Below, piece by piece: positions 4,731-26,958 of a stretch of 29,102 nt of DNA. Position 1 is the first letter of the stretch. Every line of letters starts with the position of its first letter. The DNA lies in the IMG/VR virus record IMGVR_UViG_3300026097_000074, positions 1 through 29,102 of that record. One strand, 5' to 3'. The position numbers and the translations under genes were made by a program. Source of the stretch: a virus. The notes under the pieces were generated by a model that was not told the DNA's origin, did not search any database, and was given only the letters and a program-made list of their open reading frames with translations.

Positions 4731-6173
4731 TTAGTAGTCGTAACGATCAGACATGAGAGTCTTGCACATTACATTAAAGGGAGTGAAGTCTTCTAGTTCC
4801 TTCACAGAAAGAACTGCCTTCATGATCGCCGGGCTGAAGCCAGATACGTGACATACACCTCGATCGTCGAATCGAACGGGGGTATTGTCGCGACCGTATG
4901 GAGATAGGTTCCAGAAAACGATCTTAGGAACTTCGTAACCTGCTTTAGCATACTTACGCTTGATCATCTCTTGTGCAGAGTCATCGAAGCGAGTGCAAGA
5001 ATCAAATTGCATATCCGAGAGGATGAGCAACATTTCAGGCATATCTACTTGAGCAACATTACCCTTCACAGCAACACGAAGAATTTCTTCGAATGCCACG
5101 TGAAGATTAGTATTCATACTCCAGCGTGTCTTCTCGAGTTGAGCAACACGCTGTGACAGAGTACCCGTCAGAACTTCAAGATTTGGCCTACCGCTGAAAG
5201 TAAGGAACATGTCCTTAAAATCAGAGGTGTTCTTCTCAGATAGATATAGACCCAGAGAGATTGCCACGTCAATTGGCTGAACATAACCCTTGCCCCCGTA
5301 AGAGTAGCGGATGCTACCCATGGAACCGGAAACGTCAACCATCGGCATGATACGAGCGTCGCCAACGTAGTTAGGCAGAGCCTTCCATTGTTCGTTAGCA
5401 ACAGCTGCATTACCCTTCACAACAGACTTCACAACATCATATGGGTATACCGCAGATGCATTGATCTTAACCTTAGAGCTACGTTCAGATTCAGGCTTTT
5501 GAAGTTCACGAAGGTACGCGCTATAAGCCTCTCCTGCATTACGCCCAAAAGCCTTTTGATAACGAGCAGAGGCTAGTGAAGGAACGTGCGAGAAGTTAAT
5601 GCTTTCCCACCTCTTAGCGCACATCTGAGACTCTACGACGCTGGTCAGAGCTGAGAGCATTTTACGGTACTCACGAGGATTCATTTTCATGAACGTACAA
5701 AGTTCACGTGCAATTGCTCTTTTACTGGACTTCTCGCGAGGAGCCCACTTGGCAGCAAGACCGTCACCGTTACGAAGAGCGTCTGCATACATCTCAAGCG
5801 CCTTACGACGGTTGATTGGGTCTGCATATGTAAATAGATCGTCCCAACGACCAAGGAACGGAATCTTGTGCATTAGACGGCCAGCAAGACTAGGGTTAGC
5901 AGACTCAAGAGCAACAAGCAGATCACGAAACTGTTTACGCTCTCCTGCCCCGGAACGAATATCCCGAGTCCATAGAAGAGCGCGTATTGCTAGATCTTCA
6001 TTATCAGCAAGAGCTGCTTGAAACTCTTTTATAAGAGACGTACCACGACTAGACCCTGCTTTACCAAAGAAGTCTAGCACCGCAGACGCAGAAGTCTTAC
6101 GAGCTTTCATACCGTTGGTAGTACGAGTAGGAGTTTCATTAATATAGTTTACTGCTGCAGTCTTAAAAGACAT
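4731..6173 (-). CDS. DUF2828/TROVE-type (Ro60-like) protein with vWA domain
   Basis: A 480-residue protein. Residues 1-260 form an alpha-helical repeat domain of the DUF2828 type, with WTRDIRSGAGERKQF (68-82), FLGRWDDLF (106-114), FSHVPSLASARY (194-205) and INASAVYPYD (237-246). Residues 270-480 are a von Willebrand A domain with an intact metal site: DVSGS (280-284), a Thr in MNTN (353-356) and LSDMQFD (385-391). This ring-plus-vWA plan is that of Ro60/Rsr, which binds misfolded RNAs and Y RNAs and, in bacteria, works with PNPase in RNA turnover. AAGGA lies 7 bases before ATG. The gene looks richer in G+C than its neighbours. tRNA-like RNAs sit directly on both sides. RNA binding is inferred. 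Confidence 0.85.
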   Translation of the reverse strand: MSFKTAAVNYINETPTRTTNGMKARKTSASAVLDFFGKAGSSRGTSLIKEFQAALADNEDLAIRALLWTRDIRSGAGERKQFRDLLVALESANPSLAGRLMHKIPFLGRWDDLFTYADPINRRKALEMYADALRNGDGLAAKWAPREKSSKRAIARELCTFMKMNPREYRKMLSALTSVVESQMCAKRWESINFSHVPSLASARYQKAFGRNAGEAYSAYLRELQKPESERSSKVKINASAVYPYDVVKSVVKGNAAVANEQWKALPNYVGDARIMPMVDVSGSMGSIRYSYGGKGYVQPIDVAISLGLYLSEKNTSDFKDMFLTFSGRPNLEVLTGTLSQRVAQLEKTRWSMNTNLHVAFEEILRVAVKGNVAQVDMPEMLLILSDMQFDSCTRFDDSAQEMIKRKYAKAGYEVPKIVFWNLSPYGRDNTPVRFDDRGVCHVSGFSPAIMKAVLSVKELEDFTPFNVMCKTLMSDRYDY

Positions 6174-15909: not shown

Positions 15910-16135
15910 TAAGATCTCCTTTATTTACTGCACTTAGTACAGACTCAAAGCTTTCTTTTCTGAACTCAGTCCTCCATAGTTGGACTGCAACATTATAGTT
16001 AGCTTGTTGTTCTTTTGCATAAATAAAAGCCTTAAATAGTTTATAAAGCACAGAACCTAAAATTGTTAAGATATATAATATAAGGTCTGAAATAGGCTTT
16101 ATAAAATCAGCGGTTGTTAGAACTGCTTGTCTCAT
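15890..16135 (-). CDS. small membrane protein
   Basis: An 81-residue protein starting MRQAVLTTADFIKPISDLIL, with one long hydrophobic helix (LILYILTILGSVLYKLFKAF, about 18-37) followed by a charged tail. Function unknown. The ATG at 16135 is chosen because GAGGAGAGTAAAA precedes it; an upstream start at 16159 lacks a site. The gene overlaps the end of the heat-shock gene by 29 bases, pointing to one co-translated operon. Confidence 0.7.
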   Translation of the reverse strand: MRQAVLTTADFIKPISDLILYILTILGSVLYKLFKAFIYAKEQQANYNVAVQLWRTEFRKESFESVLSAVNKGDLSDLKHS

Positions 16136-16565
16136 TTTTACTCTCCTCGTAATTTCCAATTTTTATTTTACGAGGACGCATTTCTTCTGGGACAACATAC
16201 CTCAGCTCTACTGCAAGTATGCCGTCTACTAGATTTGCTCCACTTACGTGTACGTGTTCAGACAGCCTAAAGGTGCGTTTGAATTTCTTAGTAGAAATAC
16301 CACGATGAATATACTCGCGACCTTTGGAAGTATGTTCTCCAGTAATAGTTAGTGTACGATCTTTTACCTCAATAGAAATCTCGTCACGCATAAAACCGGC
16401 TACAGCTAACTCAATAAGATAGTCTGTATCGCTTGTTTTAATTATATTATGAGGAGGGTAGTGATCATTAGCATGTCTTGCTACATGATCTAGTTCATTT
16501 AGTAAGTGATCGAACCCCACAAATGAAGAACGTGGGAATAGTGTTTGTGTTTGTATGCCTGTCAT
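16107..16565 (-). CDS. small heat-shock protein (Hsp20/IbpA-like)
   Basis: A 152-residue alpha-crystallin protein. After an N-terminal arm (MTGIQTQTLFPRSSFVGFDH), the crystallin domain runs from about PPHNI to about RKIKI and includes LIELAVAGFMRDEISIEVKD and LTITGEHTSKGREYIHRGI, with the usual A-x-x-x-G-I/V-L signature as GANLVDGILAVEL. The IxI tail motif may be IKI. It holds unfolding proteins during infection. The ATG at 16565 follows AAGGAGATAAC, and that binding site is itself locked in a ROSE-like hairpin (16570-16593). An in-frame TTG upstream lies inside the hairpin. Confidence 0.93.
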   Translation of the reverse strand: MTGIQTQTLFPRSSFVGFDHLLNELDHVARHANDHYPPHNIIKTSDTDYLIELAVAGFMRDEISIEVKDRTLTITGEHTSKGREYIHRGISTKKFKRTFRLSEHVHVSGANLVDGILAVELRYVVPEEMRPRKIKIGNYEESKNETSSSNNR

Positions 16566-16569
16566 TGTT

Positions 16570-16621
16570 ATCTCCTTTTTCGTCAAGCAAGATGTTTTAG
16601 AGACCGATATTTCGCATCTCC
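16570..16621 (-). promoter_or_regulatory. ROSE-like RNA thermometer in the Hsp20 leader
   Basis: ATCTTGCTT (16593-16585) pairs with the Shine-Dalgarno stretch AAGGAGAT (16577-16570) through a 7-base loop, with one bulged G and one U-G pair. The anti-SD strand holds UUGCU, the conserved UYGCU motif of ROSE thermometers, with the bulged G opposite the binding site. A second hairpin (AGAGACC... / GGAGA, 16600-16621) lies upstream. Heating should open the stem. Confidence 0.65.
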
Positions 16622-16699
16622 AAGTACCATAGTACTATAAAATATAGCATATAGCAACTATAATTTTACTAATCTCTGCATATTTGTATTTACAACCTG

Positions 16700-17586: not shown

Positions 17587-18327
17587 TTAAGCTTTAGGAT
17601 AGGGGAATAAATACTCTTCTTCTAATATTCTTTTGGTAGTGCGCCAACTATCTACAGCATAGACTTTATCTTCTTCAAGGCCTCTATTTAGAATAGCCTT
17701 ATGCAAGGTATAGTCATTACCGTTAGCTGCTGTGTCATCAGCAAAAAAAGATACTGCTATGTTATCGAAGTACTTTAGTATTTGGCTTTTATCTGCATTT
17801 TTATCATAAATATCAAAACCAGTTTTGCCTGCTATCTGAGCTACTAGGTTATGAGACTCTGCGAATACCTCGTTAAACTCTTTTACTAGTTTCTCGCGCT
17901 CATTATATTTTTCGTCAAACTCTTTATACCTATTTCTTTGTTCTTTATTTGCATTTCTACCTAAAACAGAAAAGTTTAGCATACCAGGCCTATAATCAAA
18001 ATGTGCGCCTGTTTTTTCGTTCCAATAACTAGCACTCAATACGTCTGTTAAATAAGATATAACTTCTTTCGGAGGTTTCCAATCCTTACTATATATTTCA
18101 GTGCTTTTAGTCCATATTGAGTTACCAGAACAATTAAAAGAGTATGCTACATAGTTATGTAAAAAATCTTCTCCTAGCTGCTCTACAGTCTTTATATAGT
18201 CACTACCAGTTACAAGATACATAACATTTGTATAAGCTAATTCTTTTAGCTCCATCAAAAAATATTTGTCAACTTCTTGTCTACTCTCTGTTAGTGTGCC
18301 GTCTACATCAAACAGTAAATTAGCCAT
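17587..18327 (-). CDS. HAD phosphatase, phosphomannomutase-like
   Basis: A 246-residue HAD protein with motif I FDVDGTLT (6-13). The middle RPGMLNFSVLGRNANKEQRN and the segment QIAGKTGFDIYDKNADKSQ match the cap and substrate loop of the eukaryotic-type phosphomannomutase family, including R..ML..S..GR and G..GFD.....DK. Motif IV is FFADDTA. A mutase or sugar-phosphate phosphatase is likely. It may serve the sugar genes at 27006-28480, which is inference. AAGGAATAAA precedes the ATG. Confidence 0.85.
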   Translation of the reverse strand: MANLLFDVDGTLTESRQEVDKYFLMELKELAYTNVMYLVTGSDYIKTVEQLGEDFLHNYVAYSFNCSGNSIWTKSTEIYSKDWKPPKEVISYLTDVLSASYWNEKTGAHFDYRPGMLNFSVLGRNANKEQRNRYKEFDEKYNEREKLVKEFNEVFAESHNLVAQIAGKTGFDIYDKNADKSQILKYFDNIAVSFFADDTAANGNDYTLHKAILNRGLEEDKVYAVDSWRTTKRILEEEYLFPYPKA

Positions 18328-21688: not shown

Positions 21689-22025
21689 AGTTATTATCCT
21701 TACTATCTAGATTCTCTACTAAGCTTTCTAACTGATAAGGGTTTTCGTCTAGCTGAGTATTAATAGAATCTAAAATGTCAATACATGGGTGTTCTAGGTT
21801 TCTAGCCCTAAAAATTATTGCGGTAGCTAAATAGGATAAGCACTCTATGTCCTTAACTATGTCGCTATCTTCATTTGAACAATCATATCCTAACTCTTCC
21901 AAAAGCATTAAAGACTCTACAAAAACTAACTGTGATAAATCTTCTGAATCAGTAAACACTGTATTTGTCTCTTCTACAACTTTTTTGTTTTTTATTCTAT
22001 TAGCTAGGTTTATGACTTCACCCAT
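21669..22025 (-). CDS. hypothetical phage protein
   Basis: A 118-residue acidic protein starting MGEVINLANRIKNKKV. The short MG.VI.L..R start followed by an acidic helical body (LVFVESLMLLEELGYDC...) is like small proteins of T4-like marine phages with no known function. Its ATG overlaps the ligase stop by 8 bases (ATGGGTGA) behind AAGGGGAATTTA, so it is co-translated with the ligase. Confidence 0.65.
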   Translation of the reverse strand: MGEVINLANRIKNKKVVEETNTVFTDSEDLSQLVFVESLMLLEELGYDCSNEDSDIVKDIECLSYLATAIIFRARNLEHPCIDILDSINTQLDENPYQLESLVENLDSKDNNYAKNDN

Positions 22026-23742
22026 TAAATTCCCCTTTTAATATAGAGCGTTTATTTTCCCAATAATTAATTATTGGCACACCGTAGTGTTTAGCTCTAT
22101 TTGTTTTGCTTGTTTCTTCTCCAGCAGATATTAGAAAGTCTAAATCTTTCGTTACCCCGTCTTTAACTACTACTCCATACTCTCTTAAATGGTCTTTTAG
22201 ATCATTTTTAGTCATATCTAGTTTACCAGAGATTGCAATTTTTATTAAATCTTCTTCGAAGCGTTCAGGCTCTCTTTCTAGAGAATAAGGAAGATTAGAT
22301 ACCCACTCTTCATTTACATCTAGCCAAGCAAGAATGCTATCTATAGTTTTAGGCCCTATATTATTAATACTCTCGTACTCAATATCCCTTAACCTATCGA
22401 ACCTATTTATCTTTTGAGTAATAGCTTTAGCAGTAGATTTGCCTACTCCTGGAATACCTAAAGAAGCTAATACTGTTTCATAAGGTTTAGGCCTGTTTAG
22501 TTCTTGTAAAATTTTATAACCATTTTTTCCTAGAACATCCCAATCAATGCTATCATCAAACAGCTCAGAAGGATGAGTAATATTTAGTTTTTCAATGGAT
22601 CTAGGACCTAGCCCTTTAACTCCTAGCTGTTTTACAAAGTATTCTACAAGTCTTTTATAATCTGCTGAGGAAGCATACAATTTAGGCCCTTGCTTAGTAA
22701 GAGTCATTCCAAGCTGTTGCTCAGCATCTTTTACACTAAACCTAGGGAAAGAAGAACTATTAACTACTTTAACAAACTGAGGAGTAATTTGTCTTTCTAT
22801 TTCTATTTTATCGCCAGGGCCTAGGTTATTAGCTTCTACATAGTCGATATTATGCAGTATAACTCTAGAAATTGTAGCGTCATCAATTACTACAGGGTCT
22901 ACTACTGCTACAGGAGTCACTACTCCTGATCTACCAACACTCCATACAATATCTTGCAAAACTGTAGTAGCCGTAAAGGCCCCACGCTCTTTCAGAGCGA
23001 CGGCAAATCTAGGGTACTTAGAGGTATATCCTAAACTTTTTTCCTTAGAATAGTCATCTACTCGGTAAACCACTCCATCACTAGGGTATACACTACAATC
23101 AGTGTTAAAGGGTGTGAGAAACCCTAAAGACTCTGCATAAGCCATTCTAGTAGTATATTTTTTGGTAATACCTAAAACATCGTGAGCAATAAACTTTAAC
23201 TGCCTATCTTCTATGTCTTTTACCTTATTTACGCCTAAAGACCCACTAACAAAGTTTCTAAAGTTAGTTATATTCTCTTTATCTGTAACAGCCTCGCCAG
23301 TAATAGTTACCACATAGCCAGAAGGCTCAATAGCGTTAGGAATGCCTTCAATAGCAGGCAGAAGATGAGTTACATTCTCCCCAAACTCTCCATCTCCTCT
23401 GGTGAGCAAGTGTATTAGAGAACCGTTTTTATCATAAGTAACAGATAAATTACTTCCATCTATTTTTATAGTGCTGACGGTAAAAGAGGGGTCAATCTCA
23501 GAAGAGGTATACACCTTCTTAAGAGAGTACAAATGATAAGGGTGCTTAACCTTACCTTTAGCCCCTCCAACACGCATAGTAGGGCTAGAAGAGTCTGCCC
23601 AGCCTTGCCGCTCTTCTGCTAAGGCGAGCCTCTCGTAAAGTACATCATATTCTGCATCAGACAATACTGATTTACTTTTATTATAGTATAAATCAGCATG
23701 ATATTTTACAGTTTCTAACAAAGATTTATAATCTTGCTGCAT
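22018..23742 (-). CDS. ligA: NAD-dependent DNA ligase (LigA-like)
   Basis: A 574-residue ligase. The NMN-binding Ia domain opens the protein (YHADLYYNKSKSVLSDAEYD), the nucleotidyl-lysine motif is KIDG at 93-96, RGDGEFGENVT and SDGVVYRVDDY are further core motifs, and the OB domain includes GRSGVVTPVAVVDPV. Helix-hairpin-helix repeats follow (LGVKGLGPRSIEKL, LGIPGVGKSTA, INNIGPKTIDS), and a BRCT domain ends it (from about 497). The four-cysteine zinc finger between OB and HhH is absent, which partly explains the length below the usual 670. AAAAGG precedes the ATG. Confidence 0.93.
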   Translation of the reverse strand: MQQDYKSLLETVKYHADLYYNKSKSVLSDAEYDVLYERLALAEERQGWADSSSPTMRVGGAKGKVKHPYHLYSLKKVYTSSEIDPSFTVSTIKIDGSNLSVTYDKNGSLIHLLTRGDGEFGENVTHLLPAIEGIPNAIEPSGYVVTITGEAVTDKENITNFRNFVSGSLGVNKVKDIEDRQLKFIAHDVLGITKKYTTRMAYAESLGFLTPFNTDCSVYPSDGVVYRVDDYSKEKSLGYTSKYPRFAVALKERGAFTATTVLQDIVWSVGRSGVVTPVAVVDPVVIDDATISRVILHNIDYVEANNLGPGDKIEIERQITPQFVKVVNSSSFPRFSVKDAEQQLGMTLTKQGPKLYASSADYKRLVEYFVKQLGVKGLGPRSIEKLNITHPSELFDDSIDWDVLGKNGYKILQELNRPKPYETVLASLGIPGVGKSTAKAITQKINRFDRLRDIEYESINNIGPKTIDSILAWLDVNEEWVSNLPYSLEREPERFEEDLIKIAISGKLDMTKNDLKDHLREYGVVVKDGVTKDLDFLISAGEETSKTNRAKHYGVPIINYWENKRSILKGEFNG

Positions 23743-25884: not shown

Positions 25885-26958
25885 TTATATACTCTTTAGT
25901 TTGATAGGTTCATTAGCATATTCCTCTTCTTCTTTAATAAAAGAGTAAAAATGGTTTACTGCTACTTCTTTGTGTTTCGCCTCAATGTCAAAATCAGCAT
26001 ACTCTAGCATCATTACATGATTTGCCATTAGATCTTCATCCCAGAAAAGTTCAGAATGTGCATTAGGCTTCATCCAGTAGTCCATATTATCAGGATGAAA
26101 AGACTGAGACTTATGAAACAAAGGTCTAATCCCTTTCCAAGTCTTTACGGCTTCTTTGAACAAAGGATTATTTACTGTAATATGTTCTACGTCTCTAATA
26201 CGCCTATTTACTGCCTTAGGGCCTATACGTACTTTTTCTACTCCTACCATACGATGGCAAGCATAGTGATGAGTATCTAATGTAGCTCTAGTAGGTATTC
26301 TACTACATAGATCAACTACATGTTCAATATCATAACCATTAGGTTTATCTTCATTTTCTACAGCCAAACATCTTTGGGCATAATCAGATAGGTATTCAAA
26401 GTTAGTAGCGAATCGTTTAATACCATCTTCATGTTTTCCCCCATAAAGTCCTTGTAAGTGTATATTCATTACAAAATCTTCAGGAGTAAGCCCCATTAGA
26501 CTTCCATAAAGTGCATGGTACTCTAAATCTTTAATAGAGTTTTCTACCACATTAGCTTTATTAGAGGCTAGAACAGTATACTGTCCTGGATGCACACTTA
26601 ACCGAACTTCATTGTCTTTTGCCGCCTTACCGACTTTTTTCAAGATATCACAGATTTCTTCCCAGATTTCTGCATACCAATCATTAGTAAAGTCTAAGGT
26701 ATAGCAAGGAAAAAGCTCAGAAGAAATTCTAAAGCTTCTCAAGTTTTTAGGCTGGGTAGGAAAGTACGCAGTCACTACGTCTAGTAATTTATTACAGTTC
26801 TCTATAGCTTTACTTTGTACTCGTTTTTTGCCGCCTTCTTTAAGAGCATATGTTTTTGTAGTAGTACCAAAGTTATAGCGTTTTGCTAGCTGTTTATCGG
26901 CAAACTGACAACACTGACTAATTCTCCAATTTTTTTCTGAATCGTTAAAGTATTCCAT
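25885..26958 (-). CDS. uvsE: UV damage endonuclease (UvsE/UVDE)
   Basis: A 357-residue TIM-barrel UV damage endonuclease. Metal- and DNA-binding blocks are visible in order: FRISSELFPCY (about 75-85), RLSVHPGQYTVLAS, MNIHLQGLYGGK, LAVENED, RATLDTHHYACH, and the Lys/Gln/Ser of LFHKSQSFH. It nicks DNA 5' of UV photoproducts without a glycosylase step, useful for sunlit waters. TAGGAGAAACA precedes the ATG, and a sigma70-like promoter (26981-27009) lies just upstream. Confidence 0.93.
   Translation of the reverse strand: MEYFNDSEKNWRISQCCQFADKQLAKRYNFGTTTKTYALKEGGKKRVQSKAIENCNKLLDVVTAYFPTQPKNLRSFRISSELFPCYTLDFTNDWYAEIWEEICDILKKVGKAAKDNEVRLSVHPGQYTVLASNKANVVENSIKDLEYHALYGSLMGLTPEDFVMNIHLQGLYGGKHEDGIKRFATNFEYLSDYAQRCLAVENEDKPNGYDIEHVVDLCSRIPTRATLDTHHYACHRMVGVEKVRIGPKAVNRRIRDVEHITVNNPLFKEAVKTWKGIRPLFHKSQSFHPDNMDYWMKPNAHSELFWDEDLMANHVMMLEYADFDIEAKHKEVAVNHFYSFIKEEEEYANEPIKLKSI

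Follow-up and report, generated by a model that had tools for sequence, protein, structure and literature searches.

The DNA analysed here, referred to as the window, is a viral source record taken at its full length of 29,102 bases, and the gene of interest lies on its minus strand (Table 1). An earlier note, made from the letters of this DNA, had placed a phage Hsp20 gene at this position, in agreement with the Pfam HSP20 match of the encoded protein (E 2.5e-19). Homologs of this protein in viral contigs are 74-86% identical to it, and a megablast search against known phages returned tRNA-sized matches only and no near relative. The window also holds 23 tRNA genes recognized with Rfam, all on the minus strand and scattered among small ORFs between 6302 and 20255.

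Table 1 Features of the hsp20 locus and other genes of the window
Feature	Coordinates	Strand	Basis and details
hsp20, alpha-crystallin small heat-shock protein, 152 aa	16107..16565	-	Pfam HSP20; translation; start ATG 16565-16563, stop at 16107
Entire ROSE-like leader to AUG	16563..16623	-	ROSE_3 match at 16560-16623; model R1
Hairpin I	16597..16623	-	Fold; covariation over 47 and 63 leaders; arms 16623-16612 and 16607-16597, G16615 unpaired
Anti-SD arm AUCUUGCUU	16585..16593	-	Sequence; UUGCU at 16590-16586, bulged G16588
Shine-Dalgarno arm AAGGAGAU	16570..16577	-	Fold; RNAalifold consensus; compensatory changes of outer pairs
480-aa protein with DUF7788 and DUF2828	4731-6173	-	
Phosphomannomutase-like protein	17587-18327		Window
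NAD-dependent DNA ligase	22018-23742	-	
UvdE-type UV endonuclease	25885-26958	-	

Immediately upstream of hsp20, the leader comprises two hairpins in 61 nt. ROSE elements have two to four hairpins, span from about 60 to over 100 nt and lie in the 5' leaders of small heat-shock genes, and the element of the window agrees with all three. In the hairpin next to the gene, the Shine-Dalgarno (SD) sequence is paired: in the predicted fold, AAGGAGAU forms a helix with AUCUUGCUU, in which UUGCU faces AGGA and a G is left bulged. The earlier note had described just such a sequestered SD, with a UYGCU motif and a bulged G opposite it, and the SD-masking structure that it noticed is confirmed as real. 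Its description of this hairpin is exact, but the element ends at 16623, 2 nt beyond the range it gave (16570-16621). Its ROSE-like reading is supported in all these sequence-level points but overlooked hairpin I, how large the family is and the leaders of dnaK and groES. Hairpin I lies directly upstream of the SD hairpin and has the make-up UUGGAGAU-(G bulge)-CGA / UCGGUCUCUAA.

The comparative data show that both hairpins are RNA structures maintained across phages. Specifically, the fold of the window leader is beaten by only 3 of 200 dinucleotide shuffles (z -2.6), and hairpin I is seldom matched by shuffled upstream DNA. Eighty viral contigs with a homologous Hsp20 were gathered; all complete leaders among them share the two-hairpin plan, the CTTGCTT arm is present in every homologous leader read, and RNAalifold, run on 47 distinct homologous leaders, independently recovered the same two hairpins. 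Across these 47 leaders, G16588 is conserved without exception, the proposed pairs are kept in 96.0% of cases compared with a shuffled mean of 85.9%, and double-change cells number 79, compared with a shuffled mean of 22.8 and with 3-14 for slid partners. When cultured and motif-found phages were added to give 63 leaders that are at most 85% alike, the strongest 7 of 703 column pairs were all proposed pairs, although the anchors of this set were picked to maximise pairing and the RNAalifold consensus and pair counts of the 47 leaders give the cleaner evidence. Within the SD helix, the inner pairs show little variation, as an SD would, whereas the outer ones change between U-A, A-U and C-G.

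The hsp20 leader of the window is one member of a large family of phage leaders, hundreds strong, in marine and freshwater phages. A gene-blind scan of viral contigs for the motif TTGCTT, spacer, AAGGAG, spacer, ATGAC placed 70 of the 80 matches listed before hsp20, as counted by reading the match table. Model R1, built solely from the 47 leaders of the window's group, matched the window once (61.1 bits, E 3.9e-14, 16563-16623), a score that includes the contribution of the window sequence itself to the model, and gave 22 matches across 21 phage records, all of them preceding hsp20, dnaK or groES. It scored cyanophage leaders, which have UCGCU, at 16-21 bits and also scored leaders in which A replaces the bulged G, considered below. 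Of the phages in culture, those of Synechococcus and Prochlorococcus show the plan, as do the Pelagibacter phages HTVC008M, Mosig and HTVC115P, the last with a hairpin I without the bulge motif. It is also visible in Methylophilales phage Melnitz-3, Sinorhizobium phage Phosso, Phage C48C1 and Pseudomonas phage 30-2; no clear element precedes the hsp20 genes of Vibrio phage PWH3a-P1 and Salicola phage SCTP-2.

The relation of this family to catalogued thermometers is close but not one of membership. The Rfam search that the earlier note had suggested as a check yielded a full-length ROSE_3 (RF02523) match in the correct place, at 31.1 bits and hence under the gathering score of 43, and at gathering thresholds neither the window nor 20 relatives gave a ROSE match. 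Further ROSE_3 matches occur in 5 of 12 other viral loci and in three more records, two of them cultured phages, with scores over all matches of 20.5-36.1 bits that never reach 43; A-type contigs and dnaK leaders, searched likewise, gave none. By Rfam's own threshold, the leader is therefore not a ROSE_3 member: it shares the two-hairpin outline, including the unpaired G in hairpin I, but its SD helix region is shorter than that of the model. An identity as Freshwater-2 RNA was also considered and rejected (16 bits against 49.9, and without UYGCU). By published description rather than direct sequence comparison, the closest parallel is found in the Pseudomonas ibpA leaders, proven thermometers that have two hairpins in about 62 nt, U(U/C)GCU-SD pairing in the second, a free AUG and a small heat-shock gene downstream, but that are bacterial and have reported promoters that are sigma32-like, not T4-type late (PMC3669281). 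The ROSE-type E. coli ibpA leader shares a UCGCU/AGGAG SD hairpin and the small heat-shock gene; on E. coli, model R1 gave only a weak match at the ibpB leader (13.2 bits, E 0.19) and none at that of ibpA. Going by the account cited in PMC4166951, the lambda cIII leader is likewise a phage mRNA leader that changes with temperature, but it switches between two alternative conformations, lowers expression when hot and is not a ROSE element.

When other genes were scanned, dnaK and groES also proved to be preceded by this SD hairpin. A hairpin of this shape precedes 82 of 83 dnaK ORFs, on contigs gathered mainly by DnaK homology with a few found by motif, compared with 0 of 34 clpX and 7 of 93 clpS genes from the same contigs; in some contigs (L338 and L419), the leader stands before dnaK, groES and hsp20 together. 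To our knowledge, bacterial ROSE elements have been described for small heat-shock genes only, so that the dnaK and groES leaders come as a surprise and extend ROSE-type control beyond this gene class. Related contigs also carry what appear to be proteostasis cassettes, clpX, dnaK, hsp20 and clpS in L147 (4102-8447) and groES, groEL, hsp20 and clpS in L155 (10777-13607), where the names clpX, groEL and clpS are our assumption from recognizing the sequences rather than from a family search. In another contig (L179, about 1858, reverse strand), an TCTTGCTT/AAGGAGA SD hairpin precedes a 93-aa acidic non-chaperone protein, with no hairpin I seen alongside.

The available data are compatible with a model in which the leader acts in cis as a ROSE-like RNA thermometer, which we consider probable from its sequence and from its likeness to known elements. 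In a cool cell, the second hairpin would grip the hsp20 SD through the imperfect helix of U-U-[G]-C-U against A-G-G-A, a type of helix by which ROSE is defined, and allow little translation. Upon warming, this weak helix would melt and open the SD, while hairpin I would stay folded as a scaffold. The temperature response itself is likely by analogy with characterised ROSE elements, in which imperfect pairing with U(U/C)GCU hides the SD and gives way on warming. Because dnaK and groES of related phages also follow this leader, the three genes may form a small post-transcriptional heat-shock regulon. In addition, a T4-type late promoter, TATAAATA, is present as an exact copy in 69 of 152 G-type leaders, compared with 1 in shuffles, and mostly ends 8-10 nt before the Y of the hairpin I bulge motif; the window has no clear copy. 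In T4 biology, a late promoter so placed would set the mRNA start near hairpin I. Since TATAAATA ends a few bases upstream of hairpin I in most relatives, Hsp20 would there be a temperature-gated chaperone produced at a late stage of infection.

For the window alone, the standard energy model is suggestive of temperature-dependent opening centred near 20 C, with predicted unpaired SD fractions of 0.11 at 5 C, 0.52 at 20 C and 0.82 at 37 C that depend on the length of coding sequence included. Between 5 and 37 C, the family median rises from 0.41 to 0.60 and that of controls from 0.41 to 0.52, and predicted melting fails to distinguish the family from ordinary leaders in these phages. As the model, in addition, ignores non-canonical pairs, it carries little weight.

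A further feature speaks against pure melting. The unpaired base is a G in most leaders and an A mainly in one Hsp20 clade, where the A occupies the SD hairpin (UUACUU) and usually hairpin I too; such A-type relatives, with their UUACU, fall outside U(U/C)GCU. For the 205 distinct Hsp20 proteins whose leaders had calls for both hairpins, the letters in hairpin I and SD hairpin are GG in 164, AA in 36 and mixed in 5, and a comparison of hsp20 and dnaK leaders on the same contig gave about 37 G/G, 24 A/A and 1 G/A. Within the A clade, contig L268 carries G at all three positions, those of its two hsp20 hairpins and of its dnaK SD hairpin. The bulged base thus tends to co-vary between the two hairpins and between the two genes, which melting does not need and which looks like shared recognition. 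In A-type leaders (for example L343, L361 and L417), an extra short hairpin such as GAGCAUAGUGCUC or GGGCAUAGUGCCC also separates hairpin I from the SD hairpin; its stem varies among leaders.

Such recognition would be explained if the hairpins were chiefly a protein-binding translational operator, bound by phage Hsp20 or another factor that would repress hsp20, dnaK and groES until misfolded clients titrate it off. This alternative, which would be compatible with melting, we regard as a tentative possibility. It has a precedent in E. coli IbpA, which binds its own 5'UTR and represses its own translation until aggregates relieve the repression, and for which Arg93 is essential and R93K inactive (PMC10474464); in E. 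coli ibpA/ibpB, this self-repression comes on top of a ROSE-type leader. Besides the concordant bulge letters, hairpin I and the SD hairpin have a common core, Y-[bulge]-C against G-G, and most phage Hsp20 proteins carry Arg at the position aligned with Arg93. However, the A form is mostly confined to one clade, the few independent switches of the bulge leave the sign test for co-change not significant, and agreement between genes might also stem from shared descent or leader copying. Moreover, the Hsp20 clade of the window has Lys at the Arg93 position (ISTKKFKRTF), as assigned by a motif that in E. coli IbpA reads IAERNFERKF, which makes self-binding by the window's Hsp20 less likely.

Alternatively, the leader might act as a constitutive damper of translation or a stabiliser of the mRNA 5' end, with no response to temperature or ligand. 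The proximity of hairpin I to the inferred 5' end of late transcripts would suit such a role, as would the energy model, in which the temperature dependence of the family is little stronger than that of control leaders. Still, neither the U(U/C)GCU/AGGA geometry with its unpaired purine, kept across very divergent phages, nor its restriction to chaperone genes is required by a mere damper, and we consider this explanation improbable. That the structure is not selected and reflects chance complementarity to the SD has practically no probability, even though weak SD-complementary stretches are common and the Rfam match lies under its cut-off, as it is already refuted by covariation and compensatory changes and opposed by gene specificity and the whole-record model searches.

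The thermometer and operator readings might also be combined. T4-like marine tailed phages and some jumbo phages would then possess their own post-transcriptional heat-shock regulon, in which one operator, shared by hsp20, dnaK and groES and existing in a G and an A form, responds to temperature by melting and is also recognized by a phage chaperone via the unpaired purine; at present, we hold this to be rather unlikely. Cyanophages have hsp20 as a core gene whose role has only been guessed at, with capsid scaffolding among the suggestions (PMC3037559). A conserved thermometer-like leader would imply post-transcriptional control of the Hsp20 dose, and the infection of abundant marine bacteria by phages may be adjusted to the temperature of the water or to protein-folding stress. 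The open-access literature searched gave nothing relevant on cyanophage RNA thermometers or phage hsp20 thermosensors and, as far as it shows, the wide spread of the family among phages, its use before dnaK and groES, and the A form are new.

Close bacterial homologs of the Hsp20 protein trace to a single locus, on a contig in a Rhodobacteraceae metagenome bin that is taken to be phage. Across 115 genomes of the class to which this bin belongs, no ROSE_3 match rose above the cut-off. Two weak matches inside the bin are accompanied by late promoters and Hsp20, and their contigs are therefore probably phage. A further sub-threshold match in the same class (L432 in G065, 32.8 bits) lies in a stretch with a ClpB-like gene. 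Finally, one related phage contig (L077, 1925-2290) encodes a permuted tmRNA of alphaproteobacterial type, hinting at an alphaproteobacterial host or origin.
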